Of a stretch of 51,363 bases of DNA, positions 20,201 through 51,363 are shown one piece after another. The translations under genes and the position numbers were made by a program. The DNA is from Ectocarpus siliculosus (lineage: Eukaryota; Sar; Phaeophyceae; Ectocarpales; Ectocarpaceae). The stretch's first letter is position 1; each line of letters starts with the position of its first letter. The notes under the pieces were generated by a model. It had not been told where the DNA came from. It did not search any database and was given only the letters and a program-made list of their open reading frames with translations. The DNA is taken from the NCBI GenBank assembly GCA_000310025.1, contig FN649750.1, forward strand, positions 2,786,599 to 2,837,961, given 5' to 3'.

Positions 20201-23200
20201 GTATTTCCCTCTGATGGCTTGTCTTCGTCCCTGTTTCGCAGGTAGCAAAAGAGGACAAGTCGGGAGCCGCCGCGGAGAGACACCCCACTCCTCTGCACTC
20301 GGGAGAGCAATGGGGCAAGGACGAGCAGGTGCATATACCAACTTTCACGTGTGTGCTCCTACACAAAGCACGTGCATGTGCGTACCGTGCCGACGGATAA
20401 ACGTAGTCTTCATTCCACATGATCATTCCACATGATGCTGCTAGATAGGTTCAATCTTGATTTGATCTTCGATGATACCCGTACAACACGCGCAGATGGT
20501 GTCGGCGAACCGTTTCGCGCATTTTTTTTTTCATTTTCATGAATAACCTTTTATCATCGGGGTGAGGACAACGCTGCCCTCTTGTCAGGTGTCACTATTA
20601 GCATTGCACGCGCACCGCCATGAAGTCGGGATTCTCCGTGGCTACAATGAGTTCTACCAGTATGGGGGATGTTTTGTTTATGGCATGGGTTATGTTTGAT
20701 TTCCACGGCAGTACCGTCGAGAATTTCCCATCCCATCGCGGAAACCAATCCGATCCCCTCGAAGCGGCGGGCTTCAGCGCCCTAGTTTTGAGCACACGTC
20801 GCGCGGCCTATGGCCTCCCAGTCGCGGCTTTCGGGCTTCGAGGTTGATTGTTGCCTGTCGGTTCGTGTCTCGTGCCTGGTTCTCTCTGGCACCCAGGCCG
20901 CTCTCTGCCGTGACATGGCCGAGAAGTTGGGTTTCGACATGAGCAAAGGCCGCTTGGACGTATCGGTGCACCCCTTCACCGGGGGACCGGGCCCTTCCGA
21001 CGTGAGGATAACCACCAGGTGAAAATGCGGCGAGGTTGTGTTGTCATGTGTGGTCTGCCGTGCTGCTGGTATACCACTGGCCGCACGTTTGGCACTCAAG
21101 AAGAGTTCCTTCGTTTCAGCAAAGGAAGTGAAGAAACGTGTTTCTTTTGACGGAATAGGTGGCGGTCCGTAGCGTCGCCGACGACTCACTTTCCCGTTTC
21201 GCCCCGTCAACACCAGCCGAACCGGTACACCGGTGGTACTTTGAAGGCACTAAGCAAGAGTTCGGATGGGTTCAGCGTGCAGACAACGCGTCCCGTGTCT
21301 GTCTCGTAACCCGTTCGTTTTTTTTTTTTGTGTGTTTCAGGTACAGCAACAACTGGATGGAGGGCGTGGCCGGAACCGTCCACGAGGTGGGACACGCGCT
21401 CTACGAGCAGGGGAGGCCTGGGGGGGACATGGAAGACCTGCCGGTGTCGAGGGCCCTCAGCATGGGAGTCCACGAGAGCCAGGTGGACCAGCCAACATGG
21501 GTTGTTGGTGTTGTTGTTATTGGTGGTGGTGGTGGTGGTGGTGGTGGCATTCCCCTCTCTTGGACTCCAGTGGCTGCAGGGCTCGCAGTGTCTCAACCTT
21601 GTACCATATCCCGCATTAATACTTTATACTACCACACCCGTAAGCCAACCAAAAACTCCCTCCTGTGTACCGCTTTTCTTTTCCTTCCGCCGCTCGGTTT
21701 TGTACTTCTGGCCATTTCATCGTGCTATGCTGCTACAACCCTGTCCTTCTTTCAGTCTCTGCTGTGGGAGAGGATGGTCTTCCAGTCCCGCCCTTTCTGG
21801 AAGTTCGCTGCACCCCTGGTTCGTGCCCGCTTCCCTCACACGAAGGGGGTCAGCGACGAGGCGTTCTACCGTGGGCTAAACCGCGTCGCCCCTTCGCTCA
21901 TCCGGGTCGATGCCGACGAGGTCACCTACCCGTTGCACATTATCCTCAGGTTTGTTGGGGCTGTTAAAAGTGTGGTATTTCATTCGTAGCTTGAATAGGC
22001 TTGCTTGCCATAAGTACCCCCGACAGGGGATGGCCCGACGACGTCTGGGTTACTTTATTTGAATCCCCCGCTGATTCTGAGCATGAAATTTTTCACTCGT
22101 AAGCAAATGAAATGAATATTTGTATACCGATTCTCACTTGAATGAGAAGTCTAAGTCTTCACTTGCAAGCAAGCGATGTTCTCCCTTGTCCTGTCGCCCT
22201 TTCTTTCGAGGGGCACCTACCCGGTGGGGGACTTGGTTTCACGGGACACAATATTCCATTTCGTCTCTAGCCGGTAAAACCCGACTTCGAATGACCTTGT
22301 TGTTCGGAGGCGCCTTTCACCCTCCCAGGCCTGGAATCGATTGTCCTCTCCCATGTACTGGTCTCTGAAGCACCACAAGATCTCGCTTTTGTTTGACCAC
22401 GGGTCGGTTTTGTTGTCAGTGGGTGTCGGCAGGCGCAATAGCGACAGAGTTTGACCTATTTATGCGCCTTCACTTTCACTTCGCGCTCTTACCCCTGACC
22501 TGACCTGACCTGACCTGAATGGTGCTCTACAGAACGGTATTTCGCTTCAGTTTGGCGACCAGCTCTCTGCCTCACGGTGCCGCTATTCCGTAGCGTGGTA
22601 AATCCCCCTTCATCCCCACTCGATTGCGTGTCCAGCTGCTGGGATGTGGCCGCCGCGTCTTGGCGTGCGAAGATGTGGCAACAAGTCTTGAATCGAGTAG
22701 GGAAACTGGGTAGGATGCGGCGTAATGTCGTGTACCTTCAAAAATTCAAGTTTATGGATGCCTCACAGCAACACCGAATCATGGCCTCCGCTTGGCATGC
22801 TTGGCGCCGAGATACGAGATCGCGATCGGCGTTGCCAAGGCATTTGGGCTCCTGTTTTTCTCTGACGTACCTCGTATGCGTATTCTGGACAAATCTCAAG
22901 AACATTTCTGAAACTACACCAAGCAATGATCCATTGCCCCTCCGATGACAAAGGTTCGAGATTGAGCAGGGCCTGATGGACGGGAGCATCGCCGTGAAAG
23001 ACGTGCCTTCGGTGTGGGTCTCGAAGATGAAGGAACTGCTCGGGGTGGACGTGCCCGGGGATGCGGAAGGCTGCTTGCAAGACATCCACTGGTACTCTAC
23101 TGTTGTGTTGTTAAAGCTTGCTTGCGAGGCATCCACTGGTACTCTCTTGCCGCTTTGTGTTGTTAAAGGCTGCTTCCAAGAGATCCACTGGTGCTATCTT

Positions 23201-24399
23201 GCCACTGTGTGTCGTTGAAACTTGCTTGCCAGACATCCCCTGGTACTCTCTTGCCGCTATGTGTCGTTGAAGGATGGCTGCAGGACATTCACTGGTACTC
23301 TCTTGCGGCCATGCGCCGTTAACGACTGCTTGCAAGACATCTGGTACTCTCTTGCCACCATGTGTTGTTGAAGGCTGCTTGCAAGGCGGCCACTGATGCT
23401 CTCTTGCAACCGTGTGCGTCGTTGTGAAAAACTCGCGCTGAAGTAGTATGCTGTTGTTGTTTTTGGCGCCGTTGAACCGTCGGATCTTGACAACAGTGGC
23501 TGGGTAGATGTACGTGACGGCAGAAGACATCTCTCAGACGTAGATGCCGCCGTGAAGTCATTGCTGCTATTTGTCGTGGTTGCCGCTGATGTGGGTGTTG
23601 AGCTGTCCATTGTTCCGCCGTTGGTACCATCGAGTTTCCCCGTCGGCCACACCGCTCTTTGCTCCTGTAGGACTTCACAGCAGTTGTTCAAGTCGCTGCT
23701 CACGCAAGTTCGCCTTCCACCTTTTTGCCTTTTCCGCCGAAGACATGATATTTCTTGTTATTGAGCGTTTCCGGTACGAATATGCGCAGGTCCGTCGGAG
23801 CGTTCGGGTACTTCCCGAGCTATACCCTGGGTGCGGTGATGGCTTGCCAGTTCTTGGAGGCCGCGAAGTTGGCGCTCCCTGACCTAGACAGCAGCCTTGA
23901 GGACGGGAACTTCGAGCCGCTCAAAACCTGGCTCAACCGAGAGGTGGGAGGGCAATGCTCGTGTTAATAACTACGTCAGAATTATAGGTTTTGAGTGGGG
24001 AGGGCCTGAAGCACTGTTTACTTTGTCCATAGTTCGAAATGCTGCAATGTCATGTGTTGATATTTGTCGCGGGCTTAGGTTTTTCGTTTCTTCCGCGTAG
24101 TATTGCAGGATGTTCACTCGATTTTGGTGGAGAGACCGGTTGAATACATGGCGCGCGGCACTTTCTATCGACCACAAGCAGCCGTTGCCGCCACTGCAGC
24201 CAGTCAGCAAAACAAGAAATGAACGGAACACCGTAATGAATGGCCCGCCACGATCGAATGGCGTCCTCAGGTGCACGCAAGAGGGTCCCTGTTTGCTAGC
24301 CCGGACGAGCTATTGACCGAGGTCACCGGGGATATCATGCGGCCCTCGGCGCTCGTGGAGCACTTGAAGTCGAAGTACACCGAGATTTACGACCTGTAG
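17291..24399 (+). CDS. M32-family (thermostable carboxypeptidase 1 type) metallocarboxypeptidase
   Basis: A metal-dependent carboxypeptidase that removes C-terminal residues from peptides. Exons: (17291)-17656, 18239-18367, 18678-18872, 19770-19940, 20242-20328, 20897-21018, 21341-21482, 21756-21949, 22954-23091, 23790-23943, 24271-24399. Exons 2-11 give 1461 nt in unbroken phase with a TAG stop. M32 motifs appear in order: LLSWDEQVMMPAGG, HPFTGG with DVRITTR, the zinc site HEVGH, HESQSLLWE (third metal ligand Glu), IRVDADEVTYPLH, GCLQDIHW and GAFGYFPSYTLG, then a terminal KSKYTEIYDL-like helix. The catalytic core is therefore complete, about 500 residues. The frame before about 17530 is Arg/Ser/Ala-rich and looks like an organelle transit peptide. 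Its true start is unsettled: ATG 17291, ATG 17348, or an upstream exon joining at a good acceptor before 17399. Confidence 0.95.
18085..18250 (+). repeat. Tandem repeat of a splice acceptor, 3 copies (carboxypeptidase exon 2)
   Basis: Three units of about 55-61 bp each contain GTGTCAG followed by G.GATGA..CCAGC. CAG ends at 18122, 18183 and 18238; only the last is followed by the codons for VMMPAGG. Using the first leads to an in-frame TAA; using the second shifts the frame. The unit therefore duplicates the intron-exon 2 boundary. Confidence 0.85.
21521..21547 (+). repeat. (GGT)n microsatellite in carboxypeptidase intron 7
   Basis: A short GGT run with flanking TTG repeats begins about 40 bases after the exon 7 donor. 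It is intronic. Confidence 0.85.
22494..22518 (+). repeat. (CCTGA)5 pentanucleotide repeat
   Basis: Five head-to-tail CCTGA units lie in carboxypeptidase intron 8. Confidence 0.9.
23067..23425 (+). repeat. Minisatellite of a splice donor, about 52 bp x 7 (carboxypeptidase exon 9)
   Basis: Unit 1 is the true exon end, encoding GCLQDIH and splitting the Trp codon at CACTG|GTACTC (exon end 23091). Six diverged copies follow, with matching junctions after 23138, 23190, 23242, 23294, 23343 and 23395. Spacings are 47, 52, 52, 52, 49 and 52. Five of the six keep GT after CTG; the last has AT. Each copy begins GGCTGCTTGCAAGACATC or a close variant. Confidence 0.93.
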
Positions 24400-30291: not shown

Positions 30292-31706
30292 CTGCCATAA
30301 ATGCGATGAGGACGCAAAGAGAGATACAGATGGGATGAAATAATGAAACCTGCTCACGGCCGGCATGTCAGTAATTTCCGCCTCATTCGGGCAAGGTCTG
30401 CTGTTTGAGCTCTTCAAGGCAGCATCCTCCAAAGCCCCTCATTGCGCATGCGTTCAAGCCACTACATTGCTTTTCAGACGGATGAGTGAAATGAGTTGGT
30501 TAAAATGCCTCGCTCGCCGGGAGTCTCCCTCCGTTGCGGTTACGTGAAATTTTATGGTTTGAACATGGACAACATCAACATCATTCCTTCGCCTCTAACA
30601 CCTCTACCCAGACGCTGCACCGCACTATGTACATGATTGAGAAACATTGATCGATGTTGATGGCACGGTAGTTTGCGTTGGGAGTACAAAGTCTTCCCAA
30701 GAAGAGCTATGTGCACGACGCAGACAACAGGCAGACAGCGAAACAACGTTATGGATTCTTCATCACACATACATACAGACCCAACAAGTATTGTGCATCG
30801 AACTACGCATTGCTAAAAGAAAGGAAGTACCGAACCACTTGCACTGCTTAGAGAACGGAGATGGTTTCTACGGCATATGGGCGGGATGGAGGGGAACACA
30901 CGCGGGAGAGCAGACGCGGGAAGAGAAGAAGAAACATTCCGAAGGAATTCTTGATCCGCGATATTTCACCGTAGACCATCACACCACTCGTCCTTCGGTG
31001 TTGCCGCGTTCACTCGTATCAATGTTTGAACAAGGGTACAGGAGGGGGAAGATATTCGAAAAGTTACCATGAATCGTCGAACTTTTTCTACGAGGTTGGC
31101 AGTAGTAGATGGATGGCAAACGTGCCTCACTCTCGTTACCCGTTCTGCGTCTACCTCCTCGTCATTGATGCCGGCCCATATTCACTCAGCCGTGCTACCA
31201 CAGGAACACACGGAGACAAGCAGCCTAGTTCGCGTAGCGCCTAGTATCTACCAAGAGAGCAATAGTTTCTACATTGCACAGTAGTATCGACCAAAGCTCG
31301 ATATCAGTCCAATTCAAATGGAACAGGTCATTGACCAACTTTCACATTGAACCACCTGCCTTGCAAACTTGCCCTTGCCGCCTCCTCTAGCACTGGACAA
31401 CAGGGAACATAGTCTCGCAAATCTACTCGTTTCGTAGCCTTGCTCTTCTTGTTGTAGGGTTACCTTTGACTGGACCAATCGGCCACACGGGCGACTGGCG
31501 GGCTATAATAGCGGGTACTCATGCGAAGATTGCGAAGATGGCCCGTTGTGTGCGGGGTGTCTGCCATCTATCGGGGATCTCCACAGCTCCACAGCGCCAG
31601 CAGCGCCAGTGGTGATGCACACCATGCGAGAGCGGGACGCCAAAGCACCGAGGCCTCGGCGGGAAACCCGGGGATACATGGGGATATGCCCCCCTCCCGC
31701 CCCTCC
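30292..31706. other. Region without a confirmed gene
   Basis: Should hold the 5' exon(s) of the minus-strand gene ending at 30291. A possible exon encoding DAALKSSN and EAEITDMPAVS lies near 30350-30420 on minus. Nothing else was recognised. Confidence 0.4.
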
Positions 31707-32386
31707 CCCCCCGGTGTTTGCCATCGGTGTTGGGTTTTCGTCGCTTGGCAACGACGTTGTAAAACAAGCCGCCGCCCCGGTGTTTTGCCATCGGGGTTGG
31801 GTTTTCGTCGCTTGGCAACGACGTTGTAAAACAAGCCCCCCCCTCGGTGTTTCCCATCGGGGTTGGGTTTTTGTCGCTTGGCAACGACGTTGTAAAATAA
31901 GCCAAGTCAATTCGTGAACTCGGCAACCAGGTTACCGTTTTTTTTTTTGCCTTTGGATTTTTTTTTTGCGGTAACCGTGAATGGTGGTCGAGTAGATCAT
32001 GTTGTGCTGGGTCGAGAACCCTCACTCCACGCAAGGGGGATGATCACACCACGTTGTGTTAAATTGGTCAAGCACTCTCGAGGCAGTTACACAGTGCTTA
32101 CAACTATCTCTGGAAGTGAAAGCACCAGAAAATAAATTAAGTCATACGCAGCTGTCATCCGTATGCAAGGAAGTAAGCACAAGATGCCGAACACCCTTAG
32201 CAGGATGCAGCGCACCCTTCATGCGACTCGCCGAATACCTCACGGCGCTTCGCGCTTGGTGATGTGAGAGCCTGGTTCGGTGAGAACCCGGCGTGCTCCG
32301 TCCCGGCTTTGTAGGGATGCGAGGTCAATGGTCTAACGACTACAGCATGCACGACTATGAGTACACCCCCCCCCCCCCCCCCAATA
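31707..32386 (-). mobile_element. Homopolymer-ended repeat element, copy 1
   Basis: Opposite orientation to copies 2 (37041-37586) and 3 (41851-42464). Reading on plus: a C-tract, three tandem roughly 60-bp units containing GTTGGGTTTTCGTCGCTTGG and ACGACGTTGTAAAACAAGCC, then GGTTACCG and CGGTAACC flanking T-runs, a unique middle with GGATGCAGCGCACCC and CGGCGCTTCGCGCTTGG, and finally GACTATGAGTACACC followed by a poly-C tract. No open frame of note. Copy number of the 60-bp unit differs between copies (3, 1, 2). Confidence 0.88.
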
Positions 32387-32594: not shown

Positions 32595-33541
32595 NNNNNN
32601 NNNNNNNNNNNNNNNNNNNNNNNNNNNNNNNNNNNNNNNNNNNNNNNNNNNNNNNNNNNNNNNNNNNNNNNNNNNNNNNNNNNNNNNNNNNNNNNNNNNN
32701 NNNNNNNNNNNNNNNNNNNNNNNNNNNNNNNNNNNNNNNNNNNNNNNNNNNNNNNNNNNNNNNNNNNNNNNNNNNNNNNNNNNNNNNNNNNNNNNNNNNN
32801 NNNNNNNNNNNNNNNNNNNNNNNNNNNNNNNNNNNNNNNNNNNNNNNNNNNNNNNNNNNNNNNNNNNNNNNNNNNNNNNNNNNNNNNNNNNNNNNNNNNN
32901 NNNNNNNNNNNNNNNNNNNNNNNNNNNNNNNNNNNNNNNNNNNNNNNNNNNNNNNNNNNNNNNNNNNNNNNNNNNNNNNNNNNNNNNNNNNNNNNNNNNN
33001 NNNNNNNNNNNNNNNNNNNNNNNNNNNNNNNNNNNNNNNNNNNNNNNNNNNNNNNNNNNNNNNNNNNNNNNNNNNNNNNNNNNNNNNNNNNNNNNNNNNN
33101 NNNNNNNNNNNNNNNNNNNNNNNNNNNNNNNNNNNNNNNNNNNNNNNNNNNNNNNNNNNNNNNNNNNNNNNNNNNNNNNNNNNNNNNNNNNNNNNNNNNN
33201 NNNNNNNNNNNNNNNNNNNNNNNNNNNNNNNNNNNNNNNNNNNNNNNNNNNNNNNNNNNNNNNNNNNNNNNNNNNNNNNNNNNNNNNNNNNNNNNNNNNN
33301 NNNNNNNNNNNNNNNNNNNNNNNNNNNNNNNNNNNNNNNNNNNNNNNNNNNNNNNNNNNNNNNNNNNNNNNNNNNNNNNNNNNNNNNNNNNNNNNNNNNN
33401 NNNNNNNNNNNNNNNNNNNNNNNNNNNNNNNNNNNNNNNNNNNNNNNNNNNNNNNNNNNNNNNNNNNNNNNNNNNNNNNNNNNNNNNNNNNNNNNNNNNN
33501 NNNNNNNNNNNNNNNNNNNNNNNNNNNNNNNNNNNNNNNNN
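32595..33541. other. Assembly gap (947 N)
   Basis: A run of N. The sequences on its two sides represent the same locus, so the gap size is probably not real. Confidence 0.95.
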
Positions 33542-35223: not shown

Positions 35224-35840
35224 GGGCGCGGGGGGGATCGCAGTACCTCCTCTGAAAAATCCAGGAAACGCCTGCATATCTCGGTTTTCCAAAGTCTAAC
35301 TGCAGTACGAAACTACCATCGTAAATTAACCGTCCGCCGCGGTCGCTTGTGGACAATGTTAGCAGCTGAGATTGTAGCCCTTTCGATACACTGTCGCTTC
35401 AAGCACTTTTCCTAAAGGCTGGACATGCATATACATGACCCTAGGCATTCAAATCGACAATGGCGACCAGCTGGATATGTGAGGGAAGAGCTGCGCTGAA
35501 GTTCGTGGCCCCATACACTCACATAGGCGGTGATTCGTGTTCACCGTGTGCTTGAAGCGTTTCAAAATTGGACCGCACAGCAGCTTCAAAAATCTAGCTT
35601 GTAGCTCACCGAACTCGATGATAGAAGGATCGTTTGGAAAATCGCGGACCGCTAGTCTGTAGTGTATAGCAAGGGGTACAACCTCAGCTACTAACATTGT
35701 ACACAAGCGACCGCTGCGGACGGTTAATTTACGATGGCAGTTTCGTACTGGAGTTAGACTTTGGAAAACCGAGATATGCAGGCGTTTCCAGGCGTTTCCT
35801 GTTTTTTGTAAGAGGAAGTACTGCGATCCCCAGTGCGGCC
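35224..35840. mobile_element. 617-bp non-autonomous DNA element with about 180-bp inverted repeats and TTAA flanks
   Basis: TTAA is present immediately outside both ends (35220-35223 and 35841-35844), the target duplication used by piggyBac-type transposons. The arms (about 35224-35400 and 35655-35840) are near-identical inverted copies sharing GGGGATCGCAGTAC, ATATCTCGGTTTTCCAAAGT, GTAAATTAACCGTCCGC and GGTCGCTTGTG. The roughly 250-bp centre has no substantial open frame. The right arm carries a small local duplication (GGCGTTTCCA twice). Confidence 0.88.
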
Positions 35841-36754: not shown

Positions 36755-39700
36755 TCAGATTATGTAGACGCTCCGGAGCTGGTCGAAACGGAACGTCTGG
36801 CCCGTCGACGGGCACGTCACCACGCTGGCCCCAACAGTCCCGCCGACAGTCCCGTCGAACCCCACAATCCCGCTGCCCGCGGCAGCGGCAGCATCCCCGG
36901 CCCCCGCCCCGGTCGTGCCCGCCGCCGGCCGCGCCAACGCCCGGATCGCCCTCGAGCCGTACACACGACCGTTCGGGAGCACCAGGGGAGGGTTGTCGTC
37001 TCCGATCGGGTCTCCAGACTGGGGAACGGGCAAGCAGGGAGGGGGGGGGGGGGGTGTACTCATAGTCGTGCATGCCGTAGTCGTTTGACCATTGACCTCG
37101 CATCCCTACAAAGCCGGGACGGAGCACGCCGGGTTCTCACCGGACCAGGCTCTCACATCACCAAGCGCGAAGCGCCGTGAGGTATTTGGCGAGTCGCATG
37201 AAGGGTGAGCTGCATCCTGCTAAGGGTCTTGTGCTTACTTCCTTGCGTACGGATGACAGCTACGTATGACTTAAATTATTTTCTGGTGCTTTCACCTCCA
37301 GTTACACAGTTGTAAGCACTGTGTAACTGCCTCGAGGAAGCTTGACCATTTTAACACAACGTGGTGCGATCATCCCACGTTGCGCGGAGTGAGGTTTCTC
37401 GACCCCGCACAACATGATCTACTCGACCACCGATTATGGTTACCGCCAAAAAAAAAGAACCAAAGGCAAAAAAAAAAGCGGTAACCTGGCTGCCGAGCTC
37501 ACGAAGTGATCGGCTTGTTATACAACATCGCTGCCAAGCGACGAAAACCCAACCCCGATGGCAAATTTCGGGGGGGGGGGGGGGGAAGGCGACTGGCGTG
37601 GAAGGAATATCAGGGGGAAGGATGGAAGAGGCGCCGCGCGTCTGATTCAGAGTAGCTAGACTACCCAGAGGGCACGGGGGGGGGGGTTCACACAGAGAGA
37701 AGGCGCATCTTGTTCAACCGGAAATAGTTCGCCTTTCCATAGCCGGACCCAAGTCCTGGAGGAGATGAGGAACCAGAGCCAGCAGGTAACGAGACTCGGC
37801 TAGTGCTCCCCAGCCAAAAAAGAGGTCGAACCGGCTCGGGAAACATAAGCGGTCAACAAAGCCACATGATACACGACGAGGGCTCTGAGTCTACGTGCTT
37901 CGCCCAGTGGAAGAGAAAACCGATGTTTACTGTAAGGCACGACCAACAGACGCCCAATAAACTCCGGTAAAATTAGCACGACGGAGGAACAGAGCTTCGT
38001 CCTGTCCATTTTCGTGGGGAGACATTGTACACACTGCGAAGTAGTTCTTCTGTCAGCAGCACCAGCAGCAGCCGTGCAACCGTAATCTGTTTACCTGGCG
38101 GCATATGAGGAACGACTGCCCGTGATGTGCGCAAGGTAGGCCCTCCGCCAGCGCCCGACCCTCCGAGCTGCAGGTAGGGCAGTGACTGAGCCGGAAGCTA
38201 TCCTGAGAGCACTGGGGGGTCTTCACCACGGAAACCCCGCTCTGCGAAAAAAAAAAAAAAAATGGGAGCAGGTGCGAGGGGAAAGCGCGGCGCGCGCACG
38301 GGAGCGCGGGGTGGTCTTGAGGAAATCGTAGAGGAGTCTTGCCCTACCAAAGAAGGCTTGCGGGTATTGATGTCGACGCTTCTTCGCTTCGACCTAGCGC
38401 ATCCAATCGGCAACCTGTTCGGATACTGAATAAAGTCTACTGCAGATGAGACAATGCCAGAAAAATAGAAACAATCAAGAAACCAAGCTGGGTCTTGCAC
38501 CGAATTTGGCGTCACTCCACACGAGTGAACAACGGGGGCTAAACCTACGCTCAACACAACACTCAATAGGGATGAGGCTGGGTCAAATGGTGTGTGGGTT
38601 GACGATACTCCTTTTGATGGCATTGGATCTCACTCGCCTTCGGCGCCTGAGGAAGGACTACGGGAGCAGCAGAACAACTTCAAAAAAAAAAAAAAAAAAA
38701 GGACAAGCAAACAGCGTGCGCCGTACTACAGTAGTAGTCGTATCGTGACATACATACCGTATATGACACAAGATAACACATCCCCTCGACCAATTTTCAA
38801 AGCTCGACTACGGCATGACGAAGAGGATGCATAATTGAAACAATGCATTTTCGGAAAGCTCTCCACGAGAAGCTTCAACGCCACCGTTTTCGGTTCTGTG
38901 ACTCTTTCTGTTGTTGCGAAATCGACATTTCAAATCGGTCGAGGGGATGTGTTATCTTGTGTCATTTACGGTAGTCCATTCACTCGTGCCCCTGGTCACA
39001 CGGGCCACCAGCAACATCCGCCTTCCCACCACCGTCGCCATGATACTCGACACAACACAACCAAGAAGGCATGCGGGCGCCTGCCCCGAGACCACAAAAG
39101 CAAAAAAAAAAACACAAAAACATCAGATGAAGCAAAAACAAAAAATATAACTGAAATAGAACAAAAATTACAAACTGAGCACGGGCACCAAGCTAGGCGG
39201 AGGTCTGTCAAATACAGGAAAGCGACGAACACATCCTTGTTCTGCTCTAAATCGCGTCGCACCTGGACCACAATCTCCAGCATCGACGGCTGCGTGAGGC
39301 CGAACACGCCTTGCATCTCTATCAGGAACTCCGACGCCAGCTCCGCCCACCTTTTCGTGCCACGCATTGCGGAGGCAGGGAGCACGGTGCAACCACAGGC
39401 GGGGTAAGCAGTAGCACCACATGTCGCACAGGAGAGTAATGGGCGTAATATCCAGCGTAATGTCACGCGGTCAAGAGAGGGAAAACACCAGTGGGGTACG
39501 CTGCAAATACAGCCCTTGAGCAGCGAGACAGGACCGCTGAAGCCACATTCGAAATGCTGCCATGGTGGCACTACATACCAGTCGCCCCGGTGGTCTAGTT
39601 GGTATCCTCGAAACCTTCAAGAGGTCAGGTCAGGGGTTCGAATCCCGGCGCAAGCGAGCTTTTCTTGCAAAGCGAGTTTTTCTCTCGCTTCCGCTACTGG

Positions 39701-42700
39701 CCTAGTGGATAGCGCTAGTTCGTGTGTACACAGAGGGAAGAGAGTGCTGAACTCTTCTCGCATTAAAAATCGAAGGCAAAGTACCGCAGGATGGGAGGGT
39801 AGAGAGGGGCTCTTCTGTGTGACCACGGGTTGGAGTAAACGGCACTATTTAGTGCTGTGAGCGCTGATTTGAAGTGAAGAAAAAAAAAAAAAAGTTTCAC
39901 CCCATATCCCTCAGTACCGTCTCACCCCGTACCCATACCGTACCGTTTTCACCCCATATTCATACCGTACCATACCTGTCATCGTGAAAAAGCGCGACCC
40001 ACTCGGGCACCGTCGACTCCTGCGGGTTAGGGAACACAAGAGTCCCCATGTCCCGCTGCACCTCAGCCTGGTGATTCGCAGCGTGTGGCTGGAGGTAGTC
40101 CCGGGCGTACTGGACCGCCTGATTGGTTCAATGTTATGTTGTTCAGGCGTGGCAGGGGTGTCGGCGAGTGTTGTTGTCGGTGTCAGCGGGGTAGGCAGCA
40201 ACGGCTGCCGTGAAACCGATAGGCGAACTCGAAACCGTTCGAGTCAGACGTGATGTGACAAAGTCACACCGCAGCACAACCTCGGTAGAATATTTGGACC
40301 GCCTGATTTTAACGCTGTCCGTTGCAACACACCGTCGATTGTTGGTGTTGGTGCCAGCGATCGGGGTGGGCCGCGCCAGTGGCCAAGGCGATGCCGTTCG
40401 TTGTGCGATGTGATCATGTGTAACTGACACGTTGCAGCATTGGACAGAAAGCGGGTGCGCATCGATGGAGACGTTCATGTCGGACGGGAAACAAGGGGCT
40501 GATGCCATTGCTGTTGGAAGAAATGCGTTAGCGTGAGCGGTGTTTGGTGTTGAAGGCCACCATGAACTATCGTGATCCACTAAATGCTCAACTGTCCAAC
40601 ACGACCGCGTCCACGCCAAACCCGAACAATGCTCGAAGACCGCGAGAGGGGGTCCGTCTTGGAGAGGTTGTTTGCGCTAGCGTGAGAACGATTTGCCATC
40701 GCTGTACCAATTTCGCGCAAAGCGTCTTCTCAACGACCATTGCCATAACGCGGAAATCTCATATCACTATCAGACGCAGCCAGGGGCGCAAATTTCGTAA
40801 CTTCTATTCGCCGTCATGACCATTGGGTACATAAACAAAGCACCATATTGTTAAGCGAGAACCAAAAAGAACAACAATACCACCCTCCTACACTGCAACA
40901 TTTAATCAAGCAAGAACCAACGAGGGACAAAAATAACTCCTCCTAGAGATCACCATACACTCGAGCGACAACCAAAAACAGCACATCCTCCTCCTACAAA
41001 GCAACATACATTCAAGCGATAGACACAATAAGCGCTATGGTGTGCGTACCTCCTCCTTCTTGTTAGCTCGGACCATCTCCAGAAACGCCCTCTCGCGGAC
41101 GCGGAACTCCAGCTTGCTCTCGAGCTTCCTCAGTCTCGACGAATTGTCCTCGCACCACCGGAGAGCCGGCCCGAGATCCTTGGCCCTTATCGCAGCCTCC
41201 ACTTCCTTTGCCCTGAATAAAAAATACACAGGAGAAACACACAAAAAAAAACGGGATGACGACATCGGGGTGATTGATCTTGCATCTTGCAGTGGTGAAA
41301 AAAAAAAATGTGGTGTCACATCAAGGGTGATTGATCTTGCATCTTCTTGCAGTGGTGGAAAAAAAAAAAAAAACTTAGAGATACACAGATACACCGCGCT
41401 TCTTGTTTTGTTTGCGTCATATACCCCTGTCTATGTCGTTTGCAGTGAAAAATTGTTCGAGAGAACCGTTCGTGCGTGTTTCCTTGTGCACCAGCCATCG
41501 ATCCACCTGTTCACCGAAAAACCCCACCTAAAAAAAAAGCACGCCGAGAGAGAGACGTGTTACGCAACGAGCGTTAAAACGTCCCCAAGGCCATATTTCC
41601 CCTCCATTACGCCGGGCATCATCGTGAAACCCATGAGCGGCGCGCGCCAGGCAACGATTCCAAAACAGACGAAACCGTTACAGCAGTCAAGATGAGAGCG
41701 GCTTCATCAGGCAAACGGCGCCCCCACCTCTCGAACAGCTCTATCGTGACGAAGTCTTGGATGCCCGCCTCCTCCGAGAGTTCCCGGGCAGCCTCCGAGT
41801 GCCCCTGTCAACGCCATCATCCAGCCCGGGCAGTCAGGCAAAATTGGCAGGGGGGGGGGGGGTGTACTCATAGTCGTGCATGCCGTAGTCGTTTGACCAT
41901 TGACCTCGCATCCCTACAAAGCCGGGACGGAGCACGCCGGGTTCTCACCGGACCAGGCTCTCACATCACCAAGCGCGAAGCGCCGTGAGGTATTTGGCGA
42001 GTCGCATGAAGGGTGAGCTGCATCCTGCTAAGGGTGTTCGGCATCTTGTGCTTACTTCCTTGCGTACGGATGACAGCTACGTATGACTTAATTTATTTTC
42101 TGGTGCGTTCACTTCCAGAGACAGTTGTAAGCACTGTGTAACTGCCTCGAGGAAGCTTGACCATTTTAACATAACGTGGTGCGATCATCCCCCGTTGCGC
42201 GGAGTGAGGTTTCTCGACCCCGCACAACATGATCTACTCGACCACCATTATGGTTACCGCCAAAAAAAAAAACGAGGTAAAAAAAAAAAAACGGTAACCT
42301 GGTTGCCGAGTTCACGAAGTGAATTGGCTTGTTTTACAACGTCGTTGCCAAGCGACGAAAACCCAATCCCGATGGCAAACACCGAGTGGGGGGCTTGTTT
42401 TACAACGTCGTTGCCAAGCGACGAAAACCCAACCCCGATGACAAACACCGGGGGGGGCGGGGGGTACCATGCATGCCTAACGGACACTCTGCAGTCGCCG
42501 CCGCCAAAGAACTTGACATATCGCGTGTTTTAGGCGGGAGGGGGTGACGGAGAATGGTACGAGACGACCTTGCGGGTTGGCGGAGATTGCGACTTGAAGA
42601 AGACACGAACAGCAACCCCCTGATACCGAATATAAACAGACGTGCGTCTACTAATAGAAATATCGCAATCCAACCAGCGCGAAGAACTTGCTCTCTCTCT

Positions 42701-43113
42701 CCCTTTGCAAAGGTATTCGACGACGCCGGGACTGAAGACACGAACGACCACGGTGCTTGCATTGCTTGCATTGCCCTGTCGAGAGCAGATGGCATACACA
42801 CCCACCGACGCCCCCCACTGCCCCGGCCATTCACGTGAGTGGCGGCTCGCGGGGTGTCTTCGACCACAGTACCTGTCGTCGGCACGCAGTCGCTCGGGCG
42901 GTGCCTTGGACTGCATCGGACCCACACAAGGCACATGCGGTATTCTCTACGAAACCCCTCTCTTCACGGCACGTTCCGCGTACACACCTACCTCTCTCAG
43001 CAGGTACTCCACGATGAAGCGGTCGAGCCGCGTCTTGCCCCCCGGAGACTCTGTCACAGCGAAGGACGATGCCGCCGCCGCGGTCGACGCGACGGCGGAA
43101 CTTCCGGTCAGGT

Positions 43114-43145
<32 letters not shown>

Positions 43146-43393
43146 TGCGCCAGAAGATCGAGGCGTTTTCTCAACCCCGTCAGGTGCTTCTTCTCTTCGC
43201 GCCCTGCTTCCTGGGCCTGGAAACCACCGTCGCAGTGGAGGTGGAGGTGTGTTTTTTCCGGGAGATACGTGTACGCACATGCCTTCTTTATTTCACGGAT
43301 GTACGACAACGCCGATCATGTCAACTTCAGGTAACGGCACGGTTTGGTAAAGAAGAACATATCACCACCAAAAACAACACCAACACGACCACC

Positions 43394-43425
<32 letters not shown>

Positions 43426-43638
43426 CAACAACAGTCAGAAAGAGCGTACCGTCGCCTTGAGGTTGGTGAGGCGGTCCATCAGCTCGCCAAGTTTCGCCGA
43501 AGCGTCACCTTCACCTTCACCGCCGCTATCGGCGGTTTCGCCTCTTCTCGTGTCGTCACCATCGGTGTCACCCGCCGCCGCCCCTGCTGCCTCGAGACTG
43601 CTGATCTCCTTGATTATTGCCGTGAGCTCCGATGTAAC
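36755..43638 (-). CDS. MAEA: MAEA/Fyv10-type (Gid9) subunit of the CTLH/GID E3 ubiquitin ligase; 5' end unresolved
   Basis: One of the two RING-like subunits of the CTLH/GID ubiquitin ligase. Exons in transcript order: 43638-43450, 43216-42992, 41804-41728, 41212-41050, 40118-39976, 39350-39263, 38211-38095, 37018-36755; total 1266 nt in exact phase, ending TGA. In order it shows a LisH-like RLDRFIVEYLLRE, the CTLH region with FERAKEVEAAI and ALRWCEDNSSRLRKLESKLE, AVQYARDYLQPH, DRWAELASEF, then the degenerate RING: CPTC, LPCAHH, FLICRQ, NPPLVLPNGRVYG and VVTCPSTGQTFRFDQL with terminal RSVYII. Oddities: a Pro-run from (CCG)n in exon 2, a Gly/Asp-rich insert in exon 1, and a roughly 35-residue Ala/Gly insert between RAIRALAR and VVTCP. 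The N-terminus is missing; a candidate lies at 45749-45575. Introns carry a SINE, a MITE and two copies of the homopolymer-ended element. Confidence 0.95.
37041..37586 (+). mobile_element. Homopolymer-ended repeat element, copy 2 (MAEA last intron)
   Basis: Starts with a 14-G run followed by TGTACTCATAGTCGTGCATG and ends with a 17-G run after GATGGCAAATTTCG. It contains one 60-bp terminal unit. On the sense strand of MAEA the G-run is a C-tract that ends 22 nt before the last exon, so it serves as or extends the polypyrimidine tract. Flanking duplications could not be identified. Confidence 0.9.
38757..38971. mobile_element. MITE copy B (MAEA intron)
   Basis: Best preserved copy. The left end CCGTATATGACACAAGATAA and the reverse complement of the right end CCGTAAATGACACAAGATAA match almost perfectly for about 40 bp. 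TA is present on both sides, suggesting a TA target duplication of the Tc1/mariner kind. Confidence 0.88.
39581..39893 (+). mobile_element. tRNA-derived SINE with poly(A) tail (MAEA intron, antisense)
   Basis: TGGTCTAGTTGG at 39591-39602 matches the RNA polymerase III A-box consensus and GGTTCGAATCC at 39635-39645 is a perfect B box, at tRNA-like spacing. The body continues for about 240 bases through a second A-box-like TGGCCTAGTGGA (39698-39709), which suggests a composite origin, and ends in a 14-A run at about 39880-39893. The T and acceptor stems do not fold properly, so it is not a working tRNA gene. Confidence 0.82.
39894..39975 (-). repeat. Tandem repeat starting at a MAEA splice donor, about 26-32 bp x 3
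   Basis: On minus, exon 5 ends GATGACAG and the intron begins with three diverged units, each starting GGTAC/T and ending GGGGTGA(A/G)AAC or similar. The first unit contains the real donor GTATGG. The third unit abuts the SINE poly(A) tail. Confidence 0.75.
41851..42464 (+). mobile_element. Homopolymer-ended repeat element, copy 3 (MAEA intron 2)
   Basis: Starts with a 12-G run and TGTACTCATAGTCGTGCATG, is over 90% identical to copy 2 through the middle, and ends ACAAACACCG plus a G-run. It has two 60-bp units with ACAACGTCGTTGCCAAGCGA, whose CGTCG/CGACG arms can form a hairpin, and GGTTACCG/CGGTAACC around A-runs. On the MAEA sense strand the C-tract ends 46 nt before exon 3. Confidence 0.9.
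43115..43145 (-). repeat. (CCG)n coding microsatellite in MAEA exon 2
   Basis: Encodes a run of about ten Pro in a spacer between the N-terminal helical part and the LisH-like motif. Likely length-variable between individuals. Confidence 0.85.
43388..43434. repeat. (CCA)n(CAA)n microsatellite in MAEA intron 1
   Basis: A CCA run followed by a CAA run begins about 15 bases inside the intron from the exon 1 donor at 43449. Confidence 0.9.
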
Positions 43639-44308
43639 CTGAGGCGGGTACAGAAAGCATGTTTCACTTCGGTTTGTCTCTCGATCCATTACGTGAGAGG
43701 TTCAGTGATTGACATCGTGAAACCAGTGTTGGATATTCAAGCGTAGTACGCAAGTCTGGATGGGACATTTATTGGCCACGGATGCCACCTGAGGCATTGA
43801 AAACCGGTCCCTCGTTACCGAAAAATAAAAATGCTCGTCTTCCGCTTTGGCGTGAATCCCAAGAATTGGCCTTTTTTTATTATGTGGGGGCGGCCGCTCT
43901 CATTCGGTGCATGTCTCGACCTGAACGACCATTGACGGCATCGTCTATCCTACACTCCGTGTCACCATTGCTGTGTTCCTTCGTACGTACCATACGCCTG
44001 TAGCCAAATACTTTGAATAGTCGAAGAACAAAAAATAACTCAACGCAATTGTTAATTCCTAGTTCTTGGTTTGGGCATGTATCATTCATTGTCCGTTTGG
44101 TGGGCTTCAAATTTTTTCTCAAGGGTGCGTTGGTGCCTGTGCGAGAGCCGCTCCAAACGGGAGAGAGAAACCGGCCGACTTCGCCACAGCTTCGGCGGCA
44201 AAAACCAAGCCCTGTCAGCATCAACGTGCTTCTGCTGTGGCCGTTCGCCTTGCCAAGCTAAAATCGCAAGCAGGCGGGCCCTTGTTCTTCGAGGGTTATG
44301 GGAAGGGT

Positions 44309-51346: not shown

Positions 51347-51363
51347 GGGGGGGGGGGGGGGGG
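51347..51363. repeat. G homopolymer at the window edge, possible fourth homopolymer-ended element
   Basis: Seventeen G to the end of the window. On minus this is a C-tract ending 22 nt before a splice acceptor, the same spacing as repeat copy 2 in MAEA, so it may be the end of another copy lying outside the window. Confidence 0.45.

Follow-up and report, generated by a model that had tools for sequence, protein, structure and literature searches.

An element ahead of splice acceptors

Where a short repeat lies with its C-tract directly upstream of splice acceptors, does it create introns, or does it settle at acceptors that were there before? The question is raised by a MAEA-like gene of Ectocarpus siliculosus in the window, the whole analysed stretch of 51,363 nt on contig FN649750.1. 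Two introns of this gene each carry a copy of the same element, in like orientation and with the C-tract towards the acceptor, just as the first-pass annotation had described; it suggested that an element inserting at, or bringing, 3' splice-site sequence would resemble an introner. We consider it very probable that the element is a non-autonomous, LINE-mobilised (SINE-like) Ectocarpus retroposon with C-runs as its targets, and that the splice sites are older. Read from the sequence, its anatomy and truncation, the duplications flanking some copies, the 3' end that it has in common with a LINE, one empty site and the equal standing of bare C-runs beside acceptors all point in this direction. 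A suspected intron-maker is thereby recast as a case of target preference, in which a C-run-favouring retroposon is steered into polypyrimidine tracts in the sense orientation.

The gene (36755-43660, minus strand) was modelled partially and by eye, with LisH, CTLH and MAEA-like C-terminal exons. The exon model matches Pfam CTLH (3.4e-30) and the human MAEA chain 8pjn_i of the PDB (1.6e-43), and the latter alignment is gap-free over both junctions of the element-bearing introns. Both copies are sense on the minus strand. The last intron (37019-38094, GT..AG, 1076 nt) holds copy 2 (37041-37585), made up of a body with one 66-bp unit (37055-37585, including a 5' C-run at 37570-37585) and a C14 run, tail or target (37041-37054), that lies 22 nt from the last exon; between the donor and the other end of the element there are 509 nt. 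Copy 3 (41850-42464) occupies an intron of 1187 nt (41805-42991), with a two-unit body whose 5' end is C-rich (41863-42464) and a C13 tail or target run (41850-41862) 45 nt before the exon that starts at 41804, and with the donor 527 nt away. These distances, obtained by subtraction, agree with the 22 nt and the roughly 510-530 nt to the donors first reported, while the second C-tract is one nucleotide closer to its exon than the 46 nt given. The two introns would still measure 531 and 572 nt with the element removed, close to the published median of 524 bp for Ectocarpus introns. Such lengths, together with the remote donors, argue against an introner, and both acceptors presumably existed before the insertions.

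The remaining copy in the window, copy 1, is sense on the plus strand at about 31705-32382, with three units in its body (31705-32365) and a C17 tail or target run (32366-32382). At the right edge a G17 run (51347-51363), read as C17 on the minus strand, does lie 22 nt from a minus-strand CAG, as had been noticed; this CAG is a candidate acceptor only, and the run itself is only a candidate element end, since the retrieved sequence, a stretch of 6 kb, reads N throughout beyond 51363.

Anatomy, abundance and kinship

On its sense strand the element reads [66-bp unit]n-body-GAGTACA-C(n). The pattern for its end, G6 plus 20 nt, has 1044 exact matches in the genome, divided 480 to 564 between the two strands, and none when reversed; a first-look search returned 2333 candidates, of which 40 were scored. 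The anatomy was followed in a non-random sample of 82 copies, of which 73 derive from 100 places among the matches listed (1044 in total) on contigs C1 and C2 only, and the rest comprise six copies from other contigs, chosen among the best first-look matches, together with the three copies of the window. A length of 500-700 nt is found in 47 of the 82, while 31 were called shorter than 500 nt, the shortest measuring 38 nt. The 3' end is constant, in a sample that was picked by this very end. Four of the short copies (L010, L020, L032 and L068) have Ns within 60 nt upstream and two (L044 and L071) run on into LINE-like sequence, which leaves 25 plain 5' truncations by length call. A search for relatives of the sequence upstream of L044 returned L044 alone.

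The 3' end also provides a link to a possible source of mobility. The last ~90 nt of the element can be aligned to the 3' end of a LINE (L096) that has a 1122-codon frame, matches RVT_1 (4.1e-34) and terminates in GAGTACGC followed by a C-run. RVT_1 was the only Pfam match in this LINE, and its endonuclease was recognised by eye. Among 20 fetched RVT_1 loci, each with ~1.5 kb of flank, a related tail occurs in this one, another (L098) being N at that place. That the element is a G/C-ended DNA transposon or MITE can scarcely be credited: both ends are homopolymeric, as such an element would have it, but inspection of the ends revealed no terminal inverted repeat, the duplications vary in length, truncation is one-sided, and the 3' end is common to an element that codes for reverse transcriptase.

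SINEs with a LINE-derived 3' end are short, non-autonomous elements that show 5' truncation and target duplications and have an A-rich tail. The Ectocarpus element resembles them in size, in its lack of autonomy, in truncation and duplications, and in the 3' end held in common with a LINE. It differs in that its tail is a C-run and in that no tRNA or Rfam head was found, either by Rfam searches of copy 1 (up to E=1) or by ARAGORN at four loci.

Although the element had at first seemed to match nothing that could be named, a published description fits it. RTEX-N1_Ec32 of Ectocarpus sp. 7 is a non-autonomous family of ~600 bp, the most abundant single family with more than 6000 copies, and it shares its 3' end with autonomous RTE-X LINEs while its 5' part is of unknown origin (PMC12477816). 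The host genus, the length of ~600 bp, the abundance (1044 exact ends here) and the LINE-shared 3' end all agree, so far as the available part of that account goes, and most likely the family has already been catalogued, probably under this name, matched by description alone. The host genus is borne out by PKS III exons that are identical to PDB 4b0n, a protein of E. siliculosus. The same part of the account makes no mention of C-run targets or of closeness to acceptors (PMC12477816); the preference for C-runs and its tie to polypyrimidine tracts may be the new part.

Probable insertion into C-runs

Target preference can be read from the flanks. In the 73 copies that could be scored for duplications (nine of the 82 were dropped for Ns), a duplication extending at least 5 nt beyond the C-run was found in 16, against a permuted mean of 1.46 and a maximum of 6 in 300 shuffles. 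The duplications are variable in length and begin with the C-run (for example in L028, L033, L050 and L054). The other 57 copies, both MAEA copies included, have no duplication of at least 5 nt past the C-run, and there it may consist of Cs only or be absent. At least five consecutive Cs lie within 45 nt of the 5' boundary in 56 of 73 copies, compared with 7.9% of random 45-mers, a figure that overstates the effect because the 66-bp unit of longer copies has Cs of its own.

When the flanks of copy L025 are joined, they align over the junction with 17 loci, all belonging to one RT-bearing repeat (68-77% identity), and the one locus displayed (L083) is an empty site with an unbroken C10 and no element. 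Copy 1 lies within a repeat too, and it and two further insertions (L063 and L037) hit the same C-run of three related repeats. In L067 the C-tail of a LINE copy, itself truncated, houses a truncated copy of the element that is flanked by repeats of the C-run plus GGGT(AA), in which the AA is ambiguous.

The C-run might alternatively be made by the element, as an untemplated or slipped tail, and tail lengths do vary, the longest being 23 and the shortest 6, which is the search minimum. We regard this as improbable, given that the 5' duplications contain C-runs as well, in truncated (L048, L050, L054) and in long copies (L028, L033), that the displayed empty site has its C10 without any element, and that one C-run was hit in three related repeats. 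Part of the C-tail could nonetheless have been added or expanded after insertion.

For the C-run-targeting retroposon a plausible route starts with an RNA read 5'-[66-bp unit]1-3-body-GAGTACA-C(n)-3'. LINE machinery with a related 3' end, perhaps an enzyme of the L096 type, would nick a C/G homopolymer run on its G-rich strand, and the 3' end of the RNA would be primed at the nick (target-primed reverse transcription). The new copy, often 5'-truncated, would be left between duplicates of the C-run and a few bases. As C-runs frequently precede acceptors when read in the coding sense, about one fifth of the sampled copies would come to lie just before an acceptor, C-tail facing it, and the splice site would already have been present.

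Proximity to splice acceptors

An acceptor was called where an AG and a coding-like exon follow within 120 nt downstream of the C-run. Five of the 82 copies were dropped for Ns within 150 nt downstream, leaving 77 for sense scoring, and a further eight had short or N-bearing upstream flanks, leaving 69 for antisense scoring. The underlying codon model was self-trained on the same sequences and replaced an order-4 Markov model that drifted to non-coding sequence; the AG that it picks may not be the true acceptor (in L012 a CAG lies at 30 nt and the one at 96 nt was picked). The tabulation of position and orientation that the first-pass annotation had proposed bears out the orientation bias, with acceptors called for 17 of 77 copies in the sense and 3 of 69 in the antisense direction (Fisher p=0.0017) and at 7.9% of random places, but it credits the element with nothing beyond its target: acceptors follow 13 of 61 element-free C-runs of at least 8 nt (Fisher p=1.0), a comparison in which only a large difference would be detectable at n=77 and 61. 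At a looser cut-off (score over 5) the enrichment fades, with 23 of 77 sense, 14 of 69 antisense and 24.1% of random places. Since bare C-runs score alike, nearness to acceptors is explained by the targeting of C-runs, and the element is often found beside existing splice sites because C-runs are common just before exons. This provides a simple null model wherever a repeat is seen to accumulate at splice acceptors.

An introner is the new intron, and some introner families have 3-9 bp duplications and TIRs, marks of DNA transposons, according to the part of the source available (PMC9860276). By that description the Ectocarpus element resembles introners in being short, present in many copies and linked to introns, and differs in lying inside a longer intron and in bearing retroposon marks. 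That it is itself the new intron, or carries a 3' splice site into exons, is very improbable. Sense orientation and acceptor closeness in 17 of 77 copies would suit this reading, but no acceptor was called nearby for the other 60, and bare C-runs are equally near to acceptors. The called AG and exon sit in the host flank, 12-119 nt past the C-run, so that of the notion that the element inserts at or brings 3' splice-site sequence only the first half survives: the sequence in which it lands frequently belongs to a 3' splice site. The missing AG alone does not exclude an introner, because some introners bring no splice site with them and use two that the insertion site supplies, as the same partly available source states (PMC9860276). 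On the upstream side, none of the 17 acceptor-proximal copies (15 scorable, with Ns in L020 and L068) has a coding exon ending within 150 nt and seven have a coding exon end 229-506 nt away; the intron reaches well past the element, whose edges are not intron edges. The results give no sign that the element makes introns.

Selection or function could still act on C-run insertions, copies near acceptors being retained for a 3' end that provides both the branch point and the polypyrimidine tract anew. Where the element landed between the AG and the original branch point, the latter would be displaced, and the element's 3' end does have CTAAC or CAAAC and GACTAC/GACTAT ahead of the C-run. We nevertheless think such retention unlikely: CTAAC occurs in 7 of 17 acceptor-proximal and 26 of 60 other copies (Fisher p=1), acceptor proximity does not exceed that of bare C-runs, and the AG of TATGAG intervenes between the branch-point-like motifs and the C-run. 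The wider idea that C-run-homing LINE machinery finds landing pads in the polypyrimidine tracts of a great many genes and, with a replacement branch point and tract, has remodelled 3' splice regions across numerous introns of Ectocarpus while sparing the exons is likewise rather doubtful. The insertions do offer a natural test of the distance over which a branch point can be shifted.

A related arrangement exists in PMEL17, where a retroposon, the dog merle SINE, occupies an intron-exon boundary and its tail is of consequence for the intron's 3' end; as far as the accessible portion of the source describes it, this is a single reverse-oriented insertion that carries a poly(A) tail (PMC7349775). 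On that description the two share the boundary position and the homopolymer tail at the intron's 3' end, whereas the Ectocarpus element has a C-tail, lies in sense orientation and shows its preference over many copies.

Element copies and the MAEA-like introns

The repeat that ends in a homopolymer of C's is present in three copies within the window (copy 1 at about 31705-32382 on the plus strand, copies 2 and 3 at 37041-37585 and 41850-42464 on the minus strand) and is best read as a LINE-mobilised retroposon that targets C-runs. In the sense direction, towards the C-run, its 66-bp units, between one and three in number, are followed by a body and then by GAGTACA and C6 to C23, the lower limit being the minimum used in the search. 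Among 82 copies sampled, 47 measure 500-700 nt, 31 were called shorter and four are longer, at least two of the latter (loci L005 and L061) because a second copy adjoins. G6 plus 20 nt of the element end has 1044 exact matches in the genome, 480 on one strand and 564 on the other, and the reversed control has none. Six of the ten internal N runs in the examined loci and the window adjoin a G or C run of six or more; C-runs may interrupt assembly and conceal element copies.

The first-pass annotation had placed copies 2 and 3 near the acceptors of two separate MAEA introns, and this is borne out; the MAEA-like gene (36755..43660) is on the minus strand. The exon model, partial and built by eye, matches Pfam CTLH (3.4e-30) and, slightly below the Pfam cut-off, LisH (0.00044), and aligns with MAEA in PDB chain 8pjn_i (1.6e-43) without gaps across both junctions downstream of the element. 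Copy 2 lies 22 nt from the exon and 509 nt from the donor in an intron of 1076 nt (37019-38094), copy 3 45 and 527 nt away in one of 1187 nt (41805-42991); the minus-strand borders of both were checked by script, and element plus C-runs account for 545 and 615 nt. The same annotation suspected an introner-like element, a reading that is not supported: introns extend well past the element, 531 and 572 nt remain in the MAEA-like introns without it (PMC12477816 gives an autosomal median of 524 for Ectocarpus), and C-runs devoid of the element are close to acceptors about as often.

At the right edge of the window a C-run lies 22 nt from a CAG, and the genome sequence past that run is N. An assembly gap of 947 N's (32595-33541) accounts for an apparent GC drop to 23-29% in the composition profile.

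Closeness to splice acceptors

An acceptor was called where AG preceded a coding-like stretch starting at most 120 nt downstream and scoring over 10 under a codon model trained on the sequences under study themselves, which ranked the true frame top in 6/6 MAEA exons tried. Such calls follow 17/77 copies in sense, against 3/69 in antisense at the opposite end (Fisher 0.0017) and 7.9% of 4000 random places. Scores over 8 give 19/77, 3/69 and 11.5%, those over 12 give 14/77, 2/69 and 6.0%, and those over 15 give 11/77, 2/69 and 4.1%; over 5 (23/77, 14/69 and 24.1%) the excess over random is lost. Coding-like sequence within 500 nt, scored in 75 copies, is downstream in sense in 17, downstream in antisense in eight, upstream in sense in five and upstream in antisense in three. 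Bare C-runs drawn from the same loci behave alike: acceptors are called in sense and antisense for 13/61 and 3/47 runs of at least 8, for 29/197 and 12/157 of at least 6, and for 6/34 and 2/24 of at least 10. Elements do not differ from bare runs of at least 8 (p=1.0), in numbers that reveal large differences only. No coding exon ends within 150 nt upstream of any of the 17 acceptor-proximal copies (two unscorable for N's), and seven have one (score over 10) at 229-506 nt, so these introns reach well past the element, which occupies their 3' part.

Insertion into a polypyrimidine tract would leave the old branch point one element length farther off, and the element might provide a replacement. 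Its 3' end contains CTAAC or CAAAC, plus GACTAC/GACTAT, and CTAAC is not enriched near acceptors (7 of 17 proximal copies versus 26 of 60 others). The two variants are roughly even, in 33/77 and 34/77 copies, and may represent two subfamilies.

Target-site duplications and a probable LINE partner

Truncated copies whose exact duplications start with a C-run bear the hallmark of target-primed reverse transcription. Copies of 38 nt (locus L050), 39-40 nt (L054), 47-50 nt (L048) and 48-52 nt (L019) carry duplications reaching 12, 10, 14 and 15 nt beyond the C-run, the last itself C-rich, and long copies of 510 nt (L033) and 527 nt (L028) carry 11 and 9 nt. Duplications of at least 5 nt beyond the C-run occur in 16/73 copies versus 1.46 expected (300 permutations, maximum 6); the other 57, both MAEA copies included, have none of that length and may duplicate C's only. 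Among the 31 short copies, N's lie within 60 nt upstream in four and LINE-like sequence upstream in two.

An empty site for the copy at L025 exists inside the genome: when the flanks of this copy are joined, 17 loci of a single repeat match them over the junction (68-77% identity), and the one displayed, L083, has an unbroken C10 there. Copy 1 and those at L063 and L037 sit in related repeats, at the same C-run in each. At L067 (about 930-1215) two retroposon insertions are nested, each with a duplication: a truncated element copy lies in the C-tail of a LINE copy that is truncated too.

One of the 20 RVT_1 loci examined, L096, has a frame of 1122 codons (RVT_1 4.1e-34) with an endonuclease-like stretch recognised by eye; its 3' end can be aligned to the last ~90 nt of the element and also terminates in a C-run. 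L098 has a nearly identical coding frame, and the 3' part of that locus is N.

Relation to catalogued repeats

The family is probably already catalogued. That the host is Ectocarpus is supported by exons of a type III PKS in this genome, which are identical to PDB 4b0n, a protein of Ectocarpus siliculosus (PMC6274091), throughout the aligned region except for one residue doubled where exons were joined in the model. PMC12477816 describes RTEX-N1_Ec32 as the most abundant family of Ectocarpus sp. 7, non-autonomous, ~600 bp long and in >6000 copies, with a 3' end resembling RTE-X LINEs and a 5' end of unknown origin. Ectocarpus host, size, abundance and LINE-related 3' end agree, a match by description and not by sequence or LINE clade. 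The sections of PMC12477816 covered leave C-runs and acceptors unmentioned, and the titles and abstract openings searched held no statement of such a preference; the C-run target preference, the sole part that looks new, may be undescribed.

Other repeats also occur in the window. At 38755-38973, an inverted repeat with 42-nt arms, 95% complementary and separated by 135 nt, spans 219 bp, near the 217 bp of TcMar-N1_Ec32 in PMC12477816, a likeness of length alone, and a related stretch lies at 938-1054. Another, with 137-nt arms that are 91% complementary and flank a 268-nt spacer, occupies 35256-35797, and a tandem array with a 52-bp period and 6.7 copies lies at 23067-23407.
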